Source: Oribacterium sp. WCC10 (GTDB taxonomy: Bacteria > Bacillota > Clostridia > Lachnospirales > Lachnospiraceae). From it: a stretch of DNA of 64,000 nt. The DNA lies in NCBI RefSeq assembly GCF_900113415.1, contig NZ_FOPH01000007.1, positions 1 to 64,000 of the forward strand, written 5' to 3'. The stretch's first letter is position 1; every line of letters begins with the position of its first letter. The position numbers and the translations under genes are program-made. Below are positions 1-39,060 of the stretch, one piece after another. The notes under the pieces were generated by a model, which ran no database searches, was not told the origin of the DNA, and was given only the letters and a program-made list of their open reading frames with translations.

Positions 1-236
1 AGCTGAAACATCTCCTTTATAATAAGAGCACCTATAATTACGTTAATCGGAGTGTTACGGCGTGAAGGCTGATCACTGTACAATACTCGGAAAGGCTCTT
101 CATCTATAGCTGGAAAAATATTTTCAGAAAAAAATTTAGCCCATGATTTTTCAAGCATTTTTACTTCTCTTTGGGTTAAATTAGAAGTAGAATCAAACAA
201 GCTGATTTGCTGAGATGAATTTGTTGCAAATGACAT
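1..236 (-). mobile_element. IS1182-family transposase, N-terminal fragment (cut by window edge)
   Basis: The minus strand from the ATG at 236 reads open to the window edge (about 78 codons). The visible protein contains the stretch FPAIDEEPFRVLYSD followed by TPINVIIGALIIKEMF, which I recognise as the conserved N-terminus (DUF772-like) of IS1182-type transposases. A GGAGG ribosome site sits 9-10 bases before the ATG and a TATAAT-like box lies near 265. The catalytic DDE part would be outside the window, so intactness cannot be judged. The outer end of the element was not located; it should lie between about 260 and 340, before the first family-B repeat. Confidence 0.8.
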
Positions 237-340
237 AAACTATACCTCCAACAGATCCTATCTCTATTATACTATTTAGAAAAGGTAATGTATTAGGTTT
301 TTAAGGTTCTAGCGCCCCATTTGTCGGGCGACTCATATCA

Positions 341-411
341 TGATGTAAGAGGCAAAAATACCAAATCTTGTGCTTCTACAATGATTTGTGACTTTATGAC
401 ACACCTGAGCA
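341..411 (+). repeat. family-B repeat, solo end (copy B1)
   Basis: Matches, with scattered changes, the right-hand end of the long element at 28227-28503: a GTAAG box, a GGCAAAAATACC segment, then a GATTTGTGACTTTATGAC segment. The same units occur at 22630 in the same orientation. It retains the hairpin layout but has lost perfect pairing, so it is probably an old copy. Confidence 0.65.
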
Positions 412-424
412 CTAATTTCCTTAT

Positions 425-545
425 GGGAACTCTGATTAAAGCGTTTCCCTGGCCGGATTTTCGATGCGAAGCATCAACTTTCTTTGAAAATCCGTGTCCC
501 GACGCCGGATGCTCTGGGGAAACACTGATATAATCAATGCTTCTT
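425..545 (+). repeat. family-A palindromic repeat (copy A1)
   Basis: About 120 bp with three hairpin units: a left arm with GATTAAAGCGTTTCCC, a central unit in which GGATTTTC and GAAAATCC pair around GATGCGAAGCATC, and a right arm GGGGAAACACTGATATAATCA. The same order, reverse-complemented, is found at 16371-16488 and 14207-14329. No open reading frame of note is carried. Confidence 0.8.
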
Positions 546-3355: not shown

Positions 3356-5014
3356 TCAGGACTTCTTCACACACATTATATCTCTTGTATCCTCAACAGA
3401 TTTTGTATAATGCAGCTTACATCCCATATCGCACATTCTGCCCAGCATTTCAATGCATTTTTCGGTCAGTATCTCTCCCGGAACCACCATCGGGATACCC
3501 GGCGGATAGCAGTAAATATATTCTGCCGAAATATTTCCTGCCGCATCCGGAAAAGAGAAACACTCCGATGAACTTTCGGTTGCTTCCTGAAGAGTCAAAC
3601 TCTGTTCCATCTTAGTGGAAAGAAGTTCGTGATATGCATCAGTATGTCCGTTAAATCCATGTCTATCCCGAAAGTCAACATTGGAATCATGGGATTTATC
3701 TAACCGATCGTCAATGTTATCAACTGCCTCTTCCCGCATTTCCATATCTCTTTCGGATAATACCTTTGATGATAACTCACCTAAGCATCGATTCTCTTTT
3801 CCTGCTTCTGATATCAGCTCTTCTTCCCTGTCAAGTTCAAGGATAGCATCGGCAAATCTCAGTATTTCACCCGGTTCATCTCCGGGACCCGTCATGGCCA
3901 GCCCGTTGTCAGAGAGACTCATCTCAAGTTCAAAACTGAATCTATCCCTCATTATCTTCATTAAGGAGCCACCATCTAAATGGGTATCCCTGCAATTCAC
4001 AAGAAGCTTACTCTTGTCAAAATCATAAAAAACATGTTTCGAACTATTATCTCTACCGTGACACATCACTTTGAAATGCTTTAAGCCCCTGACCTTTTCA
4101 TCGAAACGTTTAAGCATCCCCGACCACTTTGAAAACACCGCCTCTCCACTGTCAAGAATCATCTCAGTACAGGAATCAAGAGATATCATAAGCGGATACG
4201 AAGGCGACGATGTTTCGTAGATATCTATGAAACGGTCCACCGTATCTTCATTTACCAGGTCACTCTTTATATGCAAAAATGCAGTCTGGGTCATACCGAT
4301 AAGCGTCTTGTGGGCAGACTGTACCGCTATGTCAGCGCCGCACTGAATCGCACTCTTTGGAAAGCCTGCTGATTCCACAAGACCAAAGTGAGCTCCATGA
4401 GCTTCATCAACAAAAAGCGGAATACCATGTCTGTGACAAATATCGGCAATTGCTTCTATATCGGAAACCACCCCTTCATAAGTCGGGCTTGTAATGACAA
4501 CACCTCTGCTTTCAGGATAGTCTTCAAGAAGCTTTTCCACCTGACAGGCATCAATATCCGTCAGGATGCCAAACTCCTCATCGTATTGAGGATACAGCCA
4601 GTGTGGAGTAATATTTCTTATCTCTAATGCGTGAAAAACTGATCTATGGCAATTTCTTGCCACGATCAGTTCCCCGTTTAACGGGCATATAGCACTTATT
4701 CCGATAAGATTACCTGAGGTACTTCCATTGACAAGAAATCTGGTCTTATCGGCGCCGAACACTTCAGCCGTACGTTTCATGGATTCCAAAAGAATCCCCT
4801 CGGGGTGATGAAGATCATCAGTCCCGGAAACCTCTGTAAAGTCATACGTCATCGGATTCCCGAAGGTTTTTTCCCTGATCACATCCGGAAAGCAACAGCT
4901 TTCAGAGGTTTCTGATAATGTCATACGCCTTTTATGTCCTGGCATATGCAAAGGATATATGCCCTTTTCATTATATATTTTCAGTTCTTCGAATAAGCTT
5001 TTATTCTGCTTCAT
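3356..5014 (-). CDS. Orn/Lys/Arg decarboxylase family (PLP enzyme)
   Basis: 552 residues of the fold-type I decarboxylase family of Gram-positive bacteria (YaaO/SpeA type). PLP is expected on Lys236 in SAHKT, with the preceding DEAHGAH (203-209) and an N-terminal MPGHK, both hallmarks. The C-terminal domain ends with PPGIPMVVPGE. Which amino acid is used (arginine, lysine or ornithine) is not readable. Between the main domain and the C-terminal domain, around residues 400-480, there is an acidic stretch rich in Glu, Asp and Ser that makes the protein about 60-70 residues longer than usual. Its start lies inside the last 14 bases of the SCIFF maturase gene, indicating translational coupling. 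Confidence 0.85.
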   Translation of the reverse strand: MKQNKSLFEELKIYNEKGIYPLHMPGHKRRMTLSETSESCCFPDVIREKTFGNPMTYDFTEVSGTDDLHHPEGILLESMKRTAEVFGADKTRFLVNGSTSGNLIGISAICPLNGELIVARNCHRSVFHALEIRNITPHWLYPQYDEEFGILTDIDACQVEKLLEDYPESRGVVITSPTYEGVVSDIEAIADICHRHGIPLFVDEAHGAHFGLVESAGFPKSAIQCGADIAVQSAHKTLIGMTQTAFLHIKSDLVNEDTVDRFIDIYETSSPSYPLMISLDSCTEMILDSGEAVFSKWSGMLKRFDEKVRGLKHFKVMCHGRDNSSKHVFYDFDKSKLLVNCRDTHLDGGSLMKIMRDRFSFELEMSLSDNGLAMTGPGDEPGEILRFADAILELDREEELISEAGKENRCLGELSSKVLSERDMEMREEAVDNIDDRLDKSHDSNVDFRDRHGFNGHTDAYHELLSTKMEQSLTLQEATESSSECFSFPDAAGNISAEYIYCYPPGIPMVVPGEILTEKCIEMLGRMCDMGCKLHYTKSVEDTRDIMCVKKS

Positions 5015-11761: not shown

Positions 11762-12018
11762 AAAGTCCCCGGCAGAACCAGACTATGATTCTGCCAGGGA
11801 CGATAAAATCGCGGTGCCACCCTGTTTCACGATATGACTCGTGCGCTTTGCGAGATACCAACATATCTCCGACAACTAACGTATGTCTTACGTCACAGGA
11901 TACTAAGCATATTCATGCCTTTCATTGTGCCCTTAGCGGTCCATTTGCAATGCTGTTTTCTGCCGGATTCGCACCATCGCCGGCTCTCTGTGAGATCATA
12001 CATAGCTTTATCTCCGCT
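11762..12018 (-). promoter_or_regulatory. T-box riboswitch, tryptophan-specific, with terminator
   Basis: On the minus strand the invariant T-box AGGGTGGCACCGCG lies at 11823-11810. Stem I is bounded by AGCGG (12018-12014) and CCGCT (11939-11935); the codon TGG at 11943-11941 sits in the specifier position just before the closing strand, giving Trp. Downstream, GTCCCTGGCAGAA pairs with TTCTGCCGGGGAC followed by five T (11762), the terminator that the T-box competes with. Uncharged tRNA-Trp would stabilise the antiterminator and allow trpDFBA expression. Confidence 0.95.
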
Positions 12019-12048
12019 TCAACGGTTTAAATTATTAACTTGATAACT

Positions 12049-14206: not shown

Positions 14207-14329
14207 GAGGAAACATCTATTACATCAATGTTTCCTCAACGCCTTCGACGTCGGGCACGGTTATTAAAAGGAAGTTGATGCTTCATATCGAAAATCCGGC
14301 CGGGGAAACACTTTAATCAGCGGTTCCCT
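14207..14329 (-). repeat. family-A palindromic repeat (copy A2)
   Basis: Same order as the 16371 copy: AAACAT..ATCAATGTTTCC right arm, GACGTCGGGCACGG, GATGCTTCATATCGAAAATCCGG-type centre, and GGGGAAACACTTTAATCAG left arm. It lies between the trpC promoter region and the beta-glucuronidase terminator. The central stem has diverged (GGTTATTAAAAGG instead of GGATTTTCAAAGG). The remaining gap 13938-14206 shows no gene. Confidence 0.8.
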
Positions 14330-14334
14330 AAAAA

Positions 14335-16332: not shown

Positions 16333-16370
16333 ATTTCTAACTCTCCGTTTTTCAGATTATTTCTAAAAAA

Positions 16371-16488
16371 ACACTGATTGCATCAGTGTTTCCTTAGCGC
16401 CTCCGGCGTCGTGGCACGGATTTTCAAAGGAAATTGATGCTTCGCATCGAAAATCCGGCCGGGGAAACGCTTTAATCAGCGGTTTCCT
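16371..16488 (-). repeat. family-A palindromic repeat (best copy, A3)
   Basis: 118 bp between the PTS gene and the beta-glucuronidase gene. Reading the minus strand: GGAAACCGCTGATTAAAGCG then TTTCCCC (hairpin 1), CCGGATTTTC GATGC gaa GCATC ... GAAAATCCG (nested hairpin 2), and AAGGAAACACTGAT gca ATCAGTGTTT (hairpin 3, 11-bp stem). This is the cleanest copy and defines the family. Confidence 0.88.
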
Positions 16489-16580
16489 GAATTAAAGACC
16501 ACCCGACAAGTCTCTGATTCATCAGTCATGCTTTGATACATTTTCTTTTGTAATCCGGCTCCGATGGTCTTTTCAAATTC

Positions 16581-19475: not shown

Positions 19476-19545
19476 CTATGATGCGAATGTCAAAAGTCGC
19501 TATCGAACCGAAAAATGCGTTCCTACGTGCTACATGCAGGCACAA
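19476..19545 (+). repeat. family-B repeat, left-end remnant (copy B5)
   Basis: TATGATGCGAATGTCAAAAG matches the left end of the long element at 28227 (TATGACGTGAGTGTCAAAAG) at most positions, followed by a short GTGC...GCAC hairpin. The rest of the element is absent. Confidence 0.5.
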
Positions 19546-22629: not shown

Positions 22630-22702
22630 TGATCTAAGGGTCAAAAGTACCAAATCACGTGCTTGTACGTTGATTTGAGACTTTATGACCCGCCCGAACA
22701 CG
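22630..22702 (+). repeat. family-B repeat, solo right end (copy B2)
   Basis: From AAGGGTCAAAAGTACC to CGCCCGAACACG it differs from the right end of the 28227 element at a single base over about 67 positions. GGGTCA and TGACCC at its ends, and AAATCACGT with ACGTTGATTT inside, form one long hairpin. Located 30 bases upstream of the NhaC start; a pseudo-fresh copy. Confidence 0.85.
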
Positions 22703-26794: not shown

Positions 26795-26818
26795 TTGGTA
26801 CTTTTGACCCTTACAATT
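26795..26818 (-). repeat. family-B repeat, terminal fragment (copy B6)
   Basis: TGTAAGGGTCAAAAGTACC on the minus strand, identical to the end of the 28227 element, then sequence identity stops. Only about 20 bases survive. Confidence 0.55.
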
Positions 26819-26946: not shown

Positions 26947-27819
26947 TCACTTATCAATTACATTTACTTCTTCTACACCTGTAACTTCCTGGAATTTTGA
27001 CTCATCAAGCTGGCTTGGATCCTGACCAATGTAGGCAAGGATACCACCATCAATGTAAACTACCTGACCGTTGATGAAATCAGACGCAGGTGAAGCAAGG
27101 AATACAGCAAGTCCCTGAAGATCCTCTGTCTCGCCCCATCTCTGAGCAGGTGTCTTTGAACGGATGAAACGGTCAAACGGCGCCATTGAACCATCAGGCT
27201 GCTTCTCACGAAGAGCTGCTGTCTGTGGAGTTGCAATGTAACCTGGTCCTATAGCATTACACTGAATGTTATACTGACCATACTCTGAGCAAACATTCTT
27301 TGTGAGCATCTTGAGACCGCCCTTTGCAGCAGCATAAGCAGAAACTGTCTCACGACCAAGCTCTGACATCATTGAGCATGCATTGATGATCTTTCCAGCC
27401 TTTTTCTTTATCATTCCGGGAAGAACAGCCTTTGAGCAAAGGAATGGACCTGTAAGGTCAACATTGATAACCTGATCCCACTGCTGCTTTGTCATCTCAG
27501 TCATAGGGATTCTCTTGATGATACCTGCGTTGTTTACAAGAATGTCTACACCTCCGAACTTCTCTTCAACATCCTTGACAAGAGCATTAACCTGCTCCTC
27601 GTTTGTGACATCACATACAACACCGTAAGCATCAATACCGGCCTTTTTATACTCAGCCATACCTCTGTCTACAAGTTCCTGATTGATATCATTGAAAACA
27701 ATCTTCTTTGCTCCGGCCTCTGCAAATGCCTTTGCATACGCAAGTCCAAGTCCGTAAGAAGCTCCTGTAACCCATGCAACCTTGCCATCAAGTCTAAACT
27801 TATCAAGTATTCCAGCCAT
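26947..27819 (-). CDS. gluconate 5-dehydrogenase-like short-chain dehydrogenase
   Basis: 290 residues from the ATG at 27819 (AAAGGAG upstream). Rossmann TGASYGLG at 18-25, NNAG near 96-99, catalytic Ser149, Tyr162 and Lys166 (YAAAK). The closest pattern I recall is gluconate 5-dehydrogenase/2-deoxy-D-gluconate 3-dehydrogenase (KduD-like), acting on aldonate or uronate derivatives with NAD(P). This would fit a glucuronate-using strain but the substrate is not proven. The C-terminus has about 20 extra residues after GGILAYIGQDPSQ. Single-gene unit with LacI-type operators 200 bases upstream. Confidence 0.82.
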   Translation of the reverse strand: MAGILDKFRLDGKVAWVTGASYGLGLAYAKAFAEAGAKKIVFNDINQELVDRGMAEYKKAGIDAYGVVCDVTNEEQVNALVKDVEEKFGGVDILVNNAGIIKRIPMTEMTKQQWDQVINVDLTGPFLCSKAVLPGMIKKKAGKIINACSMMSELGRETVSAYAAAKGGLKMLTKNVCSEYGQYNIQCNAIGPGYIATPQTAALREKQPDGSMAPFDRFIRSKTPAQRWGETEDLQGLAVFLASPASDFINGQVVYIDGGILAYIGQDPSQLDESKFQEVTGVEEVNVIDK

Positions 27820-27979
27820 GTTATATCTCCTTTTTATTATTCGCCTTAAATCTGATACCAAGTATGAATCTATCCCTTATCATCTTCCTCGAATATATAT
27901 TGTGGTATCGATAGACGAGACAGGATAAATCCCTTCTAATCTCTATTGTTTTCGGCGTTTATATTAACTTTACGAGATT

Positions 27980-28180: not shown

Positions 28181-28219
28181 AAAACAGAACCGCCTTGCCA
28201 AAATGACAAGACGGTTCTA
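28181..28219 (-). terminator. terminator of the TAXI-TRAP operon
   Basis: AGAACCG and CGGTTCT close a stem with CTTG/CAAG inside, followed by TTTTATT on the minus strand. A family-B element lies between it and the operon's last stop codon. Confidence 0.8.
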
Positions 28220-28226
28220 TATAATC

Positions 28227-28503
28227 TTATGACGTGAGTGTCAAAAGTATTTGCCACTCACTGATTAGCGCTAACGCACACATTCGTGTGCATAGAGCAG
28301 GAATCCTTACAGATTCCTTTGAAGCGCTCAAAGCCGCGTGGCTCCTTCGATTAAAAATCGAAGGCAGTTGTGCTGCTGAACACTCAAACTTCGGTCCTTT
28401 TGCTATGCAAAACGACTACGTTATTCGTGTTCGGGCGGGTCATAAAGTCTCAAATCAACGTGCAAGCACGTGATTTGGTACTTTTGACCCTTACATCATC
28501 TTA
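28227..28503. mobile_element. family-B full-length element, MITE-like, about 270 bp
   Basis: The ends are imperfect inverted repeats: left ATGACGTGAGTGTCAAAAG, right (reversed) ATGATGTAAGGGTCAAAAG. Inside lie a chain of hairpins: GTGAGTG/CACTCAC (28234-28261), GCACAC/GTGTGC (near 28275), GGAATC/GATTCC (28300-28320), CCTTCGAT/ATCGAAGG (28345-28365), and a 54-nt hairpin 28437-28490 closed by GGGTCA/TGACCC. No long open frame of transposase kind. A 9-bp direct repeat ATCTTATGA flanks it (28224-28232 and 28498-28506), a candidate target duplication. Confidence 0.75.
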
Positions 28504-28536
28504 TGATTTATTATTTTCTTTCATAAAGGTCTGACA

Positions 28537-30543
28537 TCATGCCGCTTTCTCTGCTTTCCTGGGACCTTTTCCCTGTACTATCTCCATACCTATGATAGCA
28601 GCGATGATAACAATACCGATTATATCGGTAACTGTTCCGGGATACAGCATCATGAGTCCGGCTACGGCACATATGATACGTGTGACCATGTTGATAGGTC
28701 TGATAGTGTAGCCTTCAAGAGCTGCCGAAATCGCAAACATACCGATGAAACTTGTTATAACAATCATCACTACCCCTATGCCATTAGTATTGATAAGAAG
28801 CATAGCAGGATTCAGTGAGAAAATGTACGGCACCAGGAATGCTCCGATAGCAAGTCTTGTAGCATTGACTGCTGTCTTCATAGGGTCAGCCTTTGCAATA
28901 GCTGAACCGGCATATGCAGCCAACGCAACAGGAGGTGTGATATCCGCAACTATTCCGAAGTAAAATACAAACATGTTGGCACTTAATGCATTAAGTCCCA
29001 TACCTGTTGTAAGAATAGGTGCACATGTGGTTGCCATGATGATATATGTTGCTGTAGTAGGAACACCCATTCCAAGGATGATACAGCAGATCATGGTAAG
29101 GAAGAGTGCAATAAGCAGATTTCCGTGCGATACACCTACGATAGCAGATATAAACACCTGACCAAGACCTGTCATGGTGACTACTCCGGCGATGATACCG
29201 GCGATACCGCAGGCTGCTGCGATGGAAAGAGTATTCTTTGCACCGGTCACAAGAGCATTAAAGATGTCTTTAGGTGACATACGGTGATTCTTGTCAAACA
29301 TGCTGACAACGATACAGAGCACTGTTGCAATGATGGCCGCACGGCTCATAGTATAACCGGCACAGATAAGATAAATCAGTGCAACAAGCGGAATAAGAAG
29401 ATAAATCCTGGGAAGAAGGTCTTTCCACTTTGGAAGATTCTCCTTTGGGATACCCTTGAGTCCAAGTCTCTTTGCACGAAGATGAACCATAAGGAAAATA
29501 CCGGTGAAGTACAGTATAGCCGGGAGTATAGCTCTGACTACGATGTCTGAATAACGTACACCGATCATCTCAGCCATAAGAAAGGCTGCAGCTCCCATGA
29601 TAGGCGGCATGATCTGTCCGCCTGTTGAAGAGGCTGCCTCAACAGCGCCGGCAAAGTCTCCAGGGAAACCTGTATCCTTCATCATAGGGATAGTAACAGA
29701 ACCTGTAGTAACGGTATTTCCAACCGATGAACCTGAAACCATACCGCAAAGAGCACTGGAGATAACCGAAACCTTTGCAGGACCGCCGGTGGCAGAACCG
29801 GCAAGAGCATTGGCACACTGGATAAAGAAATCGGAAATGCCTGTTGCCTCAAGGAATGCACCGAAAATGATAAAGAGAACGATATATGTACTACATACAC
29901 CGATTGGTGTACCGATAACACCTGTTGTTGTATAGAACAGATTGTAAACTATCTTTCTGAGAGACGCTCCTGTTGTAAATGCATATATCACAAACAGTGA
30001 AGCAACTACTACGATAGGAATACCTGTAACTCTTCTGCAACACTCTGCAAGAACCACTATTCCTATAACACCAAGGATAATCTCAGTCTGATTGATCCTC
30101 GTTGCATGGTTAATTATCTCACGATTGTTGATTACAAAATAGAAAAAGCTTCCTGAACCAATAAGTGCCAGTATCACATCATAGAAAGGTATGTAGTTCA
30201 CCTTTTGAGCTGCTTTATGATTCTTTCCCGCCGGAAAAAGAATGAAAATAAACAGAATGACGATGCCTACAAACAAAGGACGTCTGATACGTTCATCCCA
30301 CACAGCAAAAAGATTCATATAGATCATAAAAAGAGAGAATACAGCAAGTGCCGCCTTAATCACAATGTCCGGCACGCCCTTCCACTGTCTCGTATTCGAC
30401 TCACGATCATACTTTTTCATGATCTCATCCACAGCTGCCTGAGCTTCAGCAGACTGTGCCGGCTGTGCCATAACGCCTGTCTTGCCAACGTCCACAGCTT
30501 TTGTTGTGTTATTTGTTCTTTCTTCCAATGTTGTGTCCTCCAT
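28537..30543 (-). CDS. TRAP transporter fused permease, TAXI type (DctQM fusion)
   Basis: 668 residues with roughly eighteen hydrophobic segments: a short N-terminal DctQ-like half and a long DctM-like half with GTPIGVCSTY, SGSSVGNTVTTGSVTIPMMK, SSTGGQIMPPIMGAAAFLMAEM and GMGVPTTATYIIM, all landmarks of TRAP 4TM/12TM fusions. Imports a small anion, driven by sodium or protons, with the TAXI binding protein upstream. An internal TTG at 30528 has GGAGG eight bases ahead and may be the true start; the outer ATG (30543) has little upstream support. Last gene of a three-gene operon. Confidence 0.92.
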   Translation of the reverse strand: MEDTTLEERTNNTTKAVDVGKTGVMAQPAQSAEAQAAVDEIMKKYDRESNTRQWKGVPDIVIKAALAVFSLFMIYMNLFAVWDERIRRPLFVGIVILFIFILFPAGKNHKAAQKVNYIPFYDVILALIGSGSFFYFVINNREIINHATRINQTEIILGVIGIVVLAECCRRVTGIPIVVVASLFVIYAFTTGASLRKIVYNLFYTTTGVIGTPIGVCSTYIVLFIIFGAFLEATGISDFFIQCANALAGSATGGPAKVSVISSALCGMVSGSSVGNTVTTGSVTIPMMKDTGFPGDFAGAVEAASSTGGQIMPPIMGAAAFLMAEMIGVRYSDIVVRAILPAILYFTGIFLMVHLRAKRLGLKGIPKENLPKWKDLLPRIYLLIPLVALIYLICAGYTMSRAAIIATVLCIVVSMFDKNHRMSPKDIFNALVTGAKNTLSIAAACGIAGIIAGVVTMTGLGQVFISAIVGVSHGNLLIALFLTMICCIILGMGVPTTATYIIMATTCAPILTTGMGLNALSANMFVFYFGIVADITPPVALAAYAGSAIAKADPMKTAVNATRLAIGAFLVPYIFSLNPAMLLINTNGIGVVMIVITSFIGMFAISAALEGYTIRPINMVTRIICAVAGLMMLYPGTVTDIIGIVIIAAIIGMEIVQGKGPRKAEKAA

Positions 30544-38934: not shown

Positions 38935-38984
38935 TATTTCTTCATTGTTGATTCTGTGTAATTGCTGTCAGTCATTTTATGATA

Positions 38985-39060
38985 TGAGTGTCAAACGTAC
39001 CTGCCACTCACTATTTAGCATCAACACACATTCATGTGCAATGTGCTGCATCATTTTACA
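38985..39060 (+). repeat. family-B repeat, left half (copy B4)
   Basis: TTATGATATGAGTGTCAAACGTA followed by CTGCCACTCAC repeats the left end of the 28227 element (GAGTG...CACTC hairpin, then ACACACATTCATGTGC). A more diverged relative, TGTGGG...CCCACA then GCACAC, lies at 38810-38860. Confidence 0.6.

Follow-up and report, generated by a model that had tools for sequence, protein, structure and literature searches.

A recently active, multi-hairpin MITE in Oribacterium sp. WCC10 matching the Clostridiales-1 RNA family, with an IS1182-type insertion sequence as its likely mover

The window -- the whole 64,000-nucleotide stretch of Oribacterium sp. WCC10 DNA that was analysed -- carries, flanked by genes for a short-chain dehydrogenase (26947-27861) and a DctM-type transporter (28537-30543), both on the minus strand, the element whose limits and parts are listed in Table 1. 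The original prediction, made from the letters alone, described a noncoding element with several hairpins, no transposase and ends recurring nearby, and such an element is indeed there: no reading frame of at least 80 aa overlaps it, the stretch 28215-28515 folds at -106.5 kcal/mol on the plus strand (z -8.3) and -112.9 on the minus strand (z -8.6) with 0 of 100 shuffles as good on either, and BLAST of 28200-28520 against its own genome (3.64 Mb, 53 contigs) gives at least 55 matching pieces (scoring covered the best 40 of 242 candidates). Its identity to the 11 best-matching other full copies in that scored set is 92-98%, which with the many copies bears out the idea of recent copying. Its ends are inverted as in a MITE, as judged by end alignment, a degenerate end pattern and the set of 71 elements described below. 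The window also holds a T-box leader (RF00230, 93.7 bits, 11793-12031, minus strand) and a second repeat family, 84-89% alike, at 432-552, 14254-14332 and 16359-16491.

Table 1. Positions of the element, its parts and related sequences in the window.
Feature	Positions	Strand	Basis
IS1182-type insertion sequence end; GAGTCGCCCGACAAATG reads inward from 334	1-334	-	end match and transposase
7-bp flank of the insertion sequence, ATGATAT on minus	335-341	-	equal flank, direct orientation, at an opposite insertion sequence end, contig C34
Decayed right-type end adjoining the insertion sequence copy, outer limit approximate	342-440	+	end match
Left end, 3 mismatches, of a seemingly canonical Clostridiales-1 type copy	19480-19496	+	end match
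Right-type end without left end	22631-22702	+	70/72 bases equal to the window element
Right-end fragment	26799-26817	-	end match
Left target duplication copy, ATCTTAT	28224-28230		7-bp rule across 71 TIR-defined elements
Element, subtype F, 267 bp, GACGTGAGTGTCAAAAGTA...TACTTTTGACCCTTACATC	28231-28497		aligned copies, flank reading
Left terminal inverted repeat, the commoner end in the genome	28231-28249	+	0 mismatches to degenerate end pattern
75-bp insert marking subtype F versus S	28293-28367		alignment; core 28300-28367 is a separate hairpin module
Rfam RF01699 Clostridiales-1 RNA match	28348-28498	-	54.3 bits, gathering cut-off 48
Right terminal inverted repeat GATGTAAGGGTCAAAAGTA	28479-28497	-	0 mismatches to degenerate end pattern
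Right target duplication copy, ATCTTAT	28498-28504		7-bp rule
Complete 72-bp mini-element	38981-39052	+	duplication ATTTTAT/ATTTTAC, 6/7

In copies aligned at both ends, a 7-bp direct repeat sits outside GACG/GATG...CATC. When elements were defined by two inverted ends alone (at most 3 mismatches, 34-420 bp apart), 71 distinct ones were obtained, 30 in the own genome and 41 in others, and the repeat is exact in 42 of them (23/30 and 19/41), with 29 lacking an exact duplication; over 1000 runs with shuffled flanks, exact repeats among the 71 averaged 2.5 and never exceeded 8. Together with the high copy number, this upholds the MITE-like mobility that had been proposed. The target is mostly ATNNNAT (A, T, A and T at positions 1, 2, 6 and 7 in 41, 38, 39 and 39 of the 42) with an A/T-rich middle. 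Just beyond the 7 bp, flank identity across the 71 elements collapses to 0.24 and 0.20, which rules out a 9-bp duplication: the flanking repeat first described as 9 bp long is a target duplication as suggested, of 7 bp, with the extra GA there by chance. Four left ends at different loci (L108, L110, L128, L130) all follow the same 7-mer, ATGTTAT; two tiny elements of 36 and 67 bp (L122, L136) have duplications of 7/7 and 6/7; and two 37-bp palindromic mini-elements in Coprococcus comes and Ruminococcus faecis (L214, L217) have flanks that seem to be inverted rather than direct repeats.

With up to 3 mismatches, the degenerate end GAYGTRAGKGTCAAAAGTA has 121 + 115 = 236 matches in the own genome, against 4 + 5 = 9 for its reversed control. 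The exact-duplication elements of this genome span 36 to 333 bp, with size clusters at 195 bp (n=6, subtype S) and 266-270 bp (n=10, subtype F), and alignment of the copies makes F equal to S plus the 75-bp insert. The 68-nt core of that insert forms several short hairpins and is found alone in relatives of the same genus (G004, G005, G006, G012, G014, G016 and others, among L060-L084), where the stem arms vary yet stay complementary; it lies within stop-free frames of at least 340 codons at L077, L083 and L084 and near the edge of such a frame at L063 and L065. The window copy belongs to a subtype that took up this module, and other lineages appear, by our own reading, to hold other hairpin inserts (L160, L192). 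Further G+C-rich hairpin modules were seen by eye inside canonical-type elements at L176 and L212.

Several of the other ends in the window, described at first as solo, turn out to be small elements complete in themselves or insertions that were truncated. At 38985 the left end exists and is not solo, since it opens the complete mini-element of Table 1. The left end at 19476 runs on into GTCGCTATCGAACCG, by our reading interior sequence of the canonical Clostridiales-1 subfamily, while the right end at 341 belongs to a decayed copy abutting the IS1182-type insertion sequence, and the fragment at 26795 is present as a truncated right end on the minus strand. The near-identity of the ends at 22630 and 28430 stands, with a changed figure: 2 of 72 bases differ, not one in about 67.

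Copies elsewhere, the absence of which would have told against the original prediction, are plentiful. In a set of 61 genomes (the own genome, 16 of the same genus and others of the family and order), the element or its 68-nt module was matched in 13, and genomes of Oribacterium, Lachnospira, Agathobacter and others share its ends and duplications. When named genomes were searched for one end exactly, at least 86 stretches were found; among the 80 matches listed (L145-L224), most titles name Lachnospiraceae, such as Oribacterium (C9, P6A1 and UBA4274), Lachnospira UBA5912, Agathobacter SUG487, Butyrivibrio, Coprococcus comes and strain JC7. Five listed matches outside the Lachnospiraceae (L149, L155, L180, L203, L206) have neither an ATNNNAT flank nor element-like sequence and look like chance matches. 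Viral contigs gave 3 and 45 exact matches. Around one element end, Butyrivibrio M55, Treponema bryantii B25 and Butyrivibrio LB2008 (L157, L173, L221) have the same DNA over the stretch compared, perhaps reflecting a large element common to different phyla.

A precise empty site, also proposed as a check, was not obtained. In G010 the dehydrogenase and transporter genes are adjacent, with 87 bp between alignable blocks versus 532 bp, including the element, in the window; the G010 interval lacks the element, and its intergenic DNA is too diverged for the junction to be aligned. Among 113 entries in the examined loci (both strands, some elements entered twice) there was no clear empty site; four spanning matches are read as probable element-on-element similarity or chance, and at one junction, once joined, a 151-codon reading frame runs straight through.

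An autonomous partner was the remaining item to be sought, and a candidate has been found in the own genome. Some right ends, including that at window position 341, abut GAGTCGCCCGACAAATG, which in G015 forms the inverted terminus of an insertion sequence 1,843 bp long that encodes a 530-aa transposase; window positions 3-236 correspond to transposase codons 1-78 and are 100% identical to the G015 copy. The protein has three domains over cut-off (PF13751, PF05598 and PF01609; DDE and DUF772), and the best of five NCBIfam models is IS1182 at 146.2 bits; since the curated cut-off of 270 is not reached, it is called IS1182-type here. Its end has 17 matches in the own genome. The insertion sequence continues beyond 13 of them, each lying no more than a few hundred bases from where its contig stops, as a repeated insertion sequence should; the other 4 have no such continuation. 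ATNNNAT makes up the adjoining outer 7 bases in 13/13 of the former and 3/4 of the latter. When flanks were paired across contigs, 5/6 flanks of one end equalled, in direct orientation, an opposite-end flank on another contig. In a simulation with flanks taken at random from MITE target sites, 5 or 6 were equal in 175 of 20000 runs (about 0.9%). The ATNNNAT flanks and this pairing indicate that the insertion sequence uses the MITE target and apparently makes the same 7-bp duplication. The G015 copy, the only one with both flanks on one contig, has a 6-bp rather than a 7-bp repeat.

Insertion sequence and MITE are also physically joined. At five insertion sequence ends (L350, L351, L359, L361, L363, with L361 diverged), a MITE right end stops with its CATC immediately before the 7 flank bases. 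L364 (109 bp, ATATCAT) and L365 (132 bp, ACATAAT) are elements that have exact 7-bp duplications and carry the insertion sequence end on one side, the other side being GAGTCAAGAGACAAAAG or GAGCCAAGGGACAAAG. L365 is the site of an RF01699 match of 44.9 bits, and similar ends occur at matches of 40.4 and 27.8 bits; all RF01699 matches at elements with IS-like ends (L042, L044, L050), these included, fall below the cut-off. G012 has a piece of an IS1182-type transposase (41% identity over 125 aa) and, some 130 bp past the matching part, an exact MITE end, GATGTGAGGGTCAAAAG, which points inward and has ATTCTAT outside it. No stop codon stands directly at the end of the protein match (L369), and because the contig ends inside the piece, a MITE end may adjoin the insertion sequence copy there by coincidence.

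Between the resident insertion sequence end and the MITE ends only 8-9 of 17 positions agree, and the transposase of this insertion sequence was found at E <= 1e-20 in 4/61 genomes (own, G012, G015, G041) and not in G002, G004, G010 (73% complete), G011, G014 or G016, all of which have element sequence. Both observations would be expected if the MITE were moved by a transposase of some other family and the IS1182 link reflected a common taste for ATNNNAT sites. This must be considered, and seems unlikely: it sits poorly with L364 and L365, with the G012 transposase beside an exact MITE end, and with the exclusion of one such family, IS256, for which PF00872 was found in 0/8 relatives with element sequence (G002, G004, G010, G011, G012, G014 with one stretch beside the module, G015 and G016). 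The matching search for IS256 ends gave none below 3 mismatches in 28 loci (3 had exactly 3) and none at up to 5 mismatches in the five loci of the own genome. The transposon in the same genome is the element's probable mover. Among the genomes and loci examined, no autonomous copy was found that is complete and has exact MITE ends; five pattern matches in viral contigs included no relative of the transposase, and eight plasmid records have 23-35% identity to it, seven of them presumably haloarchaeal.

Other partners were tried and set aside. The 7-bp duplications contradict an IS200/IS605-REP type, which is not known to make a target duplication. When an autonomous element was sought by end pairs in the 80 matches listed, of at least 86, a single pair, L209, combined a spacing of about 2 kb with one long frame and at most 3 mismatches; it encloses a 569-codon frame, presumably DinB/UmuC, which appears to lie between two separate elements. 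End pairs 1.3-3.2 kb apart at L146, L177, L190 and L192 have mismatching flanks or a MITE inside. Candidate ends in G011 and G015 gave no transposon among the matches listed, and one recurring match lies within a gene that we take to be rpsT.

The RF01699 match of the window element is one of 41 in the own genome, 25 of them over the cut-off. Of ten loci scanned against Rfam, seven have RF01699 over the cut-off, from 70.8 bits (L028) to 134.3 (L167), and three do not (L042, L195, L364). Elements of other Lachnospiraceae with exact 7-bp duplications match the model at up to 134.3 bits, which argues that the "RNA family" is, here, a MITE superfamily. At L167 the model spans 4508-4676 and the element with exact duplications 4509-4709, so that the match ends 33 nt before the true element end and omits a 3' hairpin. 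The accessible text of the motif's source (Weinberg 2010) describes Clostridiales-1 as probably an RNA, probably not cis-regulatory, of Clostridiales and the human gut; neither "transposon" nor "transposable" appears anywhere in its main text as accessible here. A literature search, with most subscription journals outside its reach, found no report that RF01699 or Clostridiales-1 is mobile.

For covariation, 14 distinct RNA-strand sequences were kept from 18 aligned; L186 was left out as seemingly unrelated save for its ends, and L151, L199 and L215 as resembling kept rows. RF01699 is over the cut-off in 7 of the 8 rows scanned, L195 being the exception. RNAalifold gives 38 pairs, 28 of them with double changes between subfamilies, so that the fold and covariation analysis first proposed comes out in favour of a conserved structure. 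Paired cells amount to 86.8% (shuffle mean 67.6, 0/500 as high; slid versions at most 47.2%, a comparison in which the structure is favoured by having been predicted from the same 14-row alignment), and cells with double changes to 102 versus a shuffle mean of 35. Further pair types are not unusual (45 vs 42.9 in shuffles, 142/500).

Covariation this strong, in a family whose authors call it a probable RNA in the text accessible here, might suggest a functional small RNA or cis-regulator that is repeated by happenstance. That is very unlikely: against it stand the exact duplications and many copies, the lack of orientation bias to neighbours (upstream gene on the same strand in 11/19 own and 28/53 other cases), and the lack of a clear excess of G-U over A-C among distinct stem changes within young subfamilies, at 36:28 (F), 27:27 (S), 9:6 (canonical) and 8:5 (Agathobacter type) in four partly overlapping sets. 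The last two results fit a structure kept for mobility, and our reading is that the structure persists in lineages that spread, not through a task performed by the single copy; such conservation is compatible with RNA and with single-stranded DNA alike. The early suggestion of a function as RNA or transposition substrate accordingly holds for the RNA shape, seen in the covariation between subfamilies and in Rfam, and finds no sign in its favour where a job at the individual site is concerned.

The two ends are not equally common. A hand count of 73 exact end matches in the own genome gives 51 left-type, 18 right-type and 4 mixed. Among 97 left ends examined, 28 are full, 26 of these with a duplication at no more than 1 mismatch, 10 are short copies with an ATC end and a duplication, and 59 are truncated, a number that includes 15 with an alignment ending at reference base 260, believed to be misread right ends. 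An exact 7-bp duplication marks the break in six of the 59 (permutation mean 0.53, 0/2000 runs as high). One of these, L112, ends in CGTC, a normal terminus, which leaves five (L025, L124, L131, L134, L140) with a left end and 7-bp duplication and no normal right end; at four of them 1-2 bases appear, by our own reading, to be shared at the junction. Most truncated copies, having no duplication, may simply have decayed. A SINE-like retroposon, in which a minus-strand RNA would be copied into DNA from its 3' end (the window left end) and inserted, would account for the fixed and variable ends, the truncated copies with duplications at the break and their junction bases, and is nevertheless highly improbable, faced with the fixed 7-bp duplication, palindromic target and terminal inverted repeats, with 10 short copies that keep a proper right terminus and duplication as internal deletions do, with the IS1182-type link, and with reverse transcriptase genes (RVT_1) that are present in 35/61 genomes in a distribution not following the elements, none being found in G010, G014 or G024 though these have element matches.

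The element is thus a real, recently active and structured MITE, and probably a non-autonomous member of a Lachnospiraceae-wide superfamily, the Clostridiales-1 of Rfam, moved by an IS1182-type enzyme. Its ends, duplication length and palindromic target are read directly from the DNA. A DDE transposase would cut at the GAYGTRAG... ends and join the element into ATNNNAT targets with a 7-bp stagger, and this enzyme would be the transposase of the resident IS1182-type insertion sequence, a choice suggested by the same target, the apparently same duplication, the loosely related ends, the elements that carry an insertion sequence end and, in G012, the related transposase with an exact MITE end next to it. 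The fold with its several hairpins may be kept between lineages because copies with it spread better, whereas an inserted copy seems to decay freely. Some events would use a left end and an abnormal right end, giving the five truncated copies with a duplication. One rather doubtful extension is that the fold is itself part of transposition, the IS1182-type transposase acting on a single strand in folded form (RNA-templated or single-stranded DNA), anchored at a fixed left end; this would explain the polarised truncations and would make all Clostridiales-1 a transposition substrate, not a regulatory RNA.

What surprises most is that a curated RNA family is the body of a MITE, for which there is also a candidate mover. 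In these genomes at least, an RNA family listed without a function turns into a family of transposons whose borders, target rule and candidate enzyme can be stated. Covariation usually serves to prove that an RNA is functional, yet it can arise in copies that are mobile. The system also lends itself to asking what makes a MITE maintain an elaborate fold and acquire additional hairpins.

The Clostridiales-1 model matches the window element at 54.3 bits, a short subtype S copy at 70.8 and elements of other genera at up to 134.3, while the family is listed, in the part of its record accessible here, as a probable RNA, with a model that stops short of the L167 terminus. Like bacterial MITEs in general, the element is short and geneless, with inverted ends and a target duplication, and is likely moved in trans; unlike them, it has a covarying multi-hairpin body across genera, hairpin modules that were taken up, and polarised truncation. 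The resident transposase resembles the IS1182 family in its best NCBIfam match and its DUF772 and DDE_Tnp_1_6 domains, and differs from it in a score of 146 bits, below the cut-off of 270, and in its 7-bp ATNNNAT targets, the target of IS1182 being a 4-bp palindrome. The bcr1-bcr3 repeats of the Bacillus cereus group are, in the accessible parts of PMC3446304 and PMC6542083, similarly MITE-like and abundant, with an average of 39 bcr1 copies per strain, often in transcripts, and some other bcr families have conserved structures; they belong to another host, their mobility is linked to TTTAT motifs, and neither a 7-bp ATNNNAT duplication nor an IS1182 link is described for bcr in those parts. 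One fixed and one variable end also recall the one-ended transposition of IS801 and IS91, in which, according to the accessible part of PMC3189936, IS801 fragments end in a tetranucleotide and IS91 is without proper inverted repeats, unlike the MITE described here with its inverted ends and 7-bp duplications.
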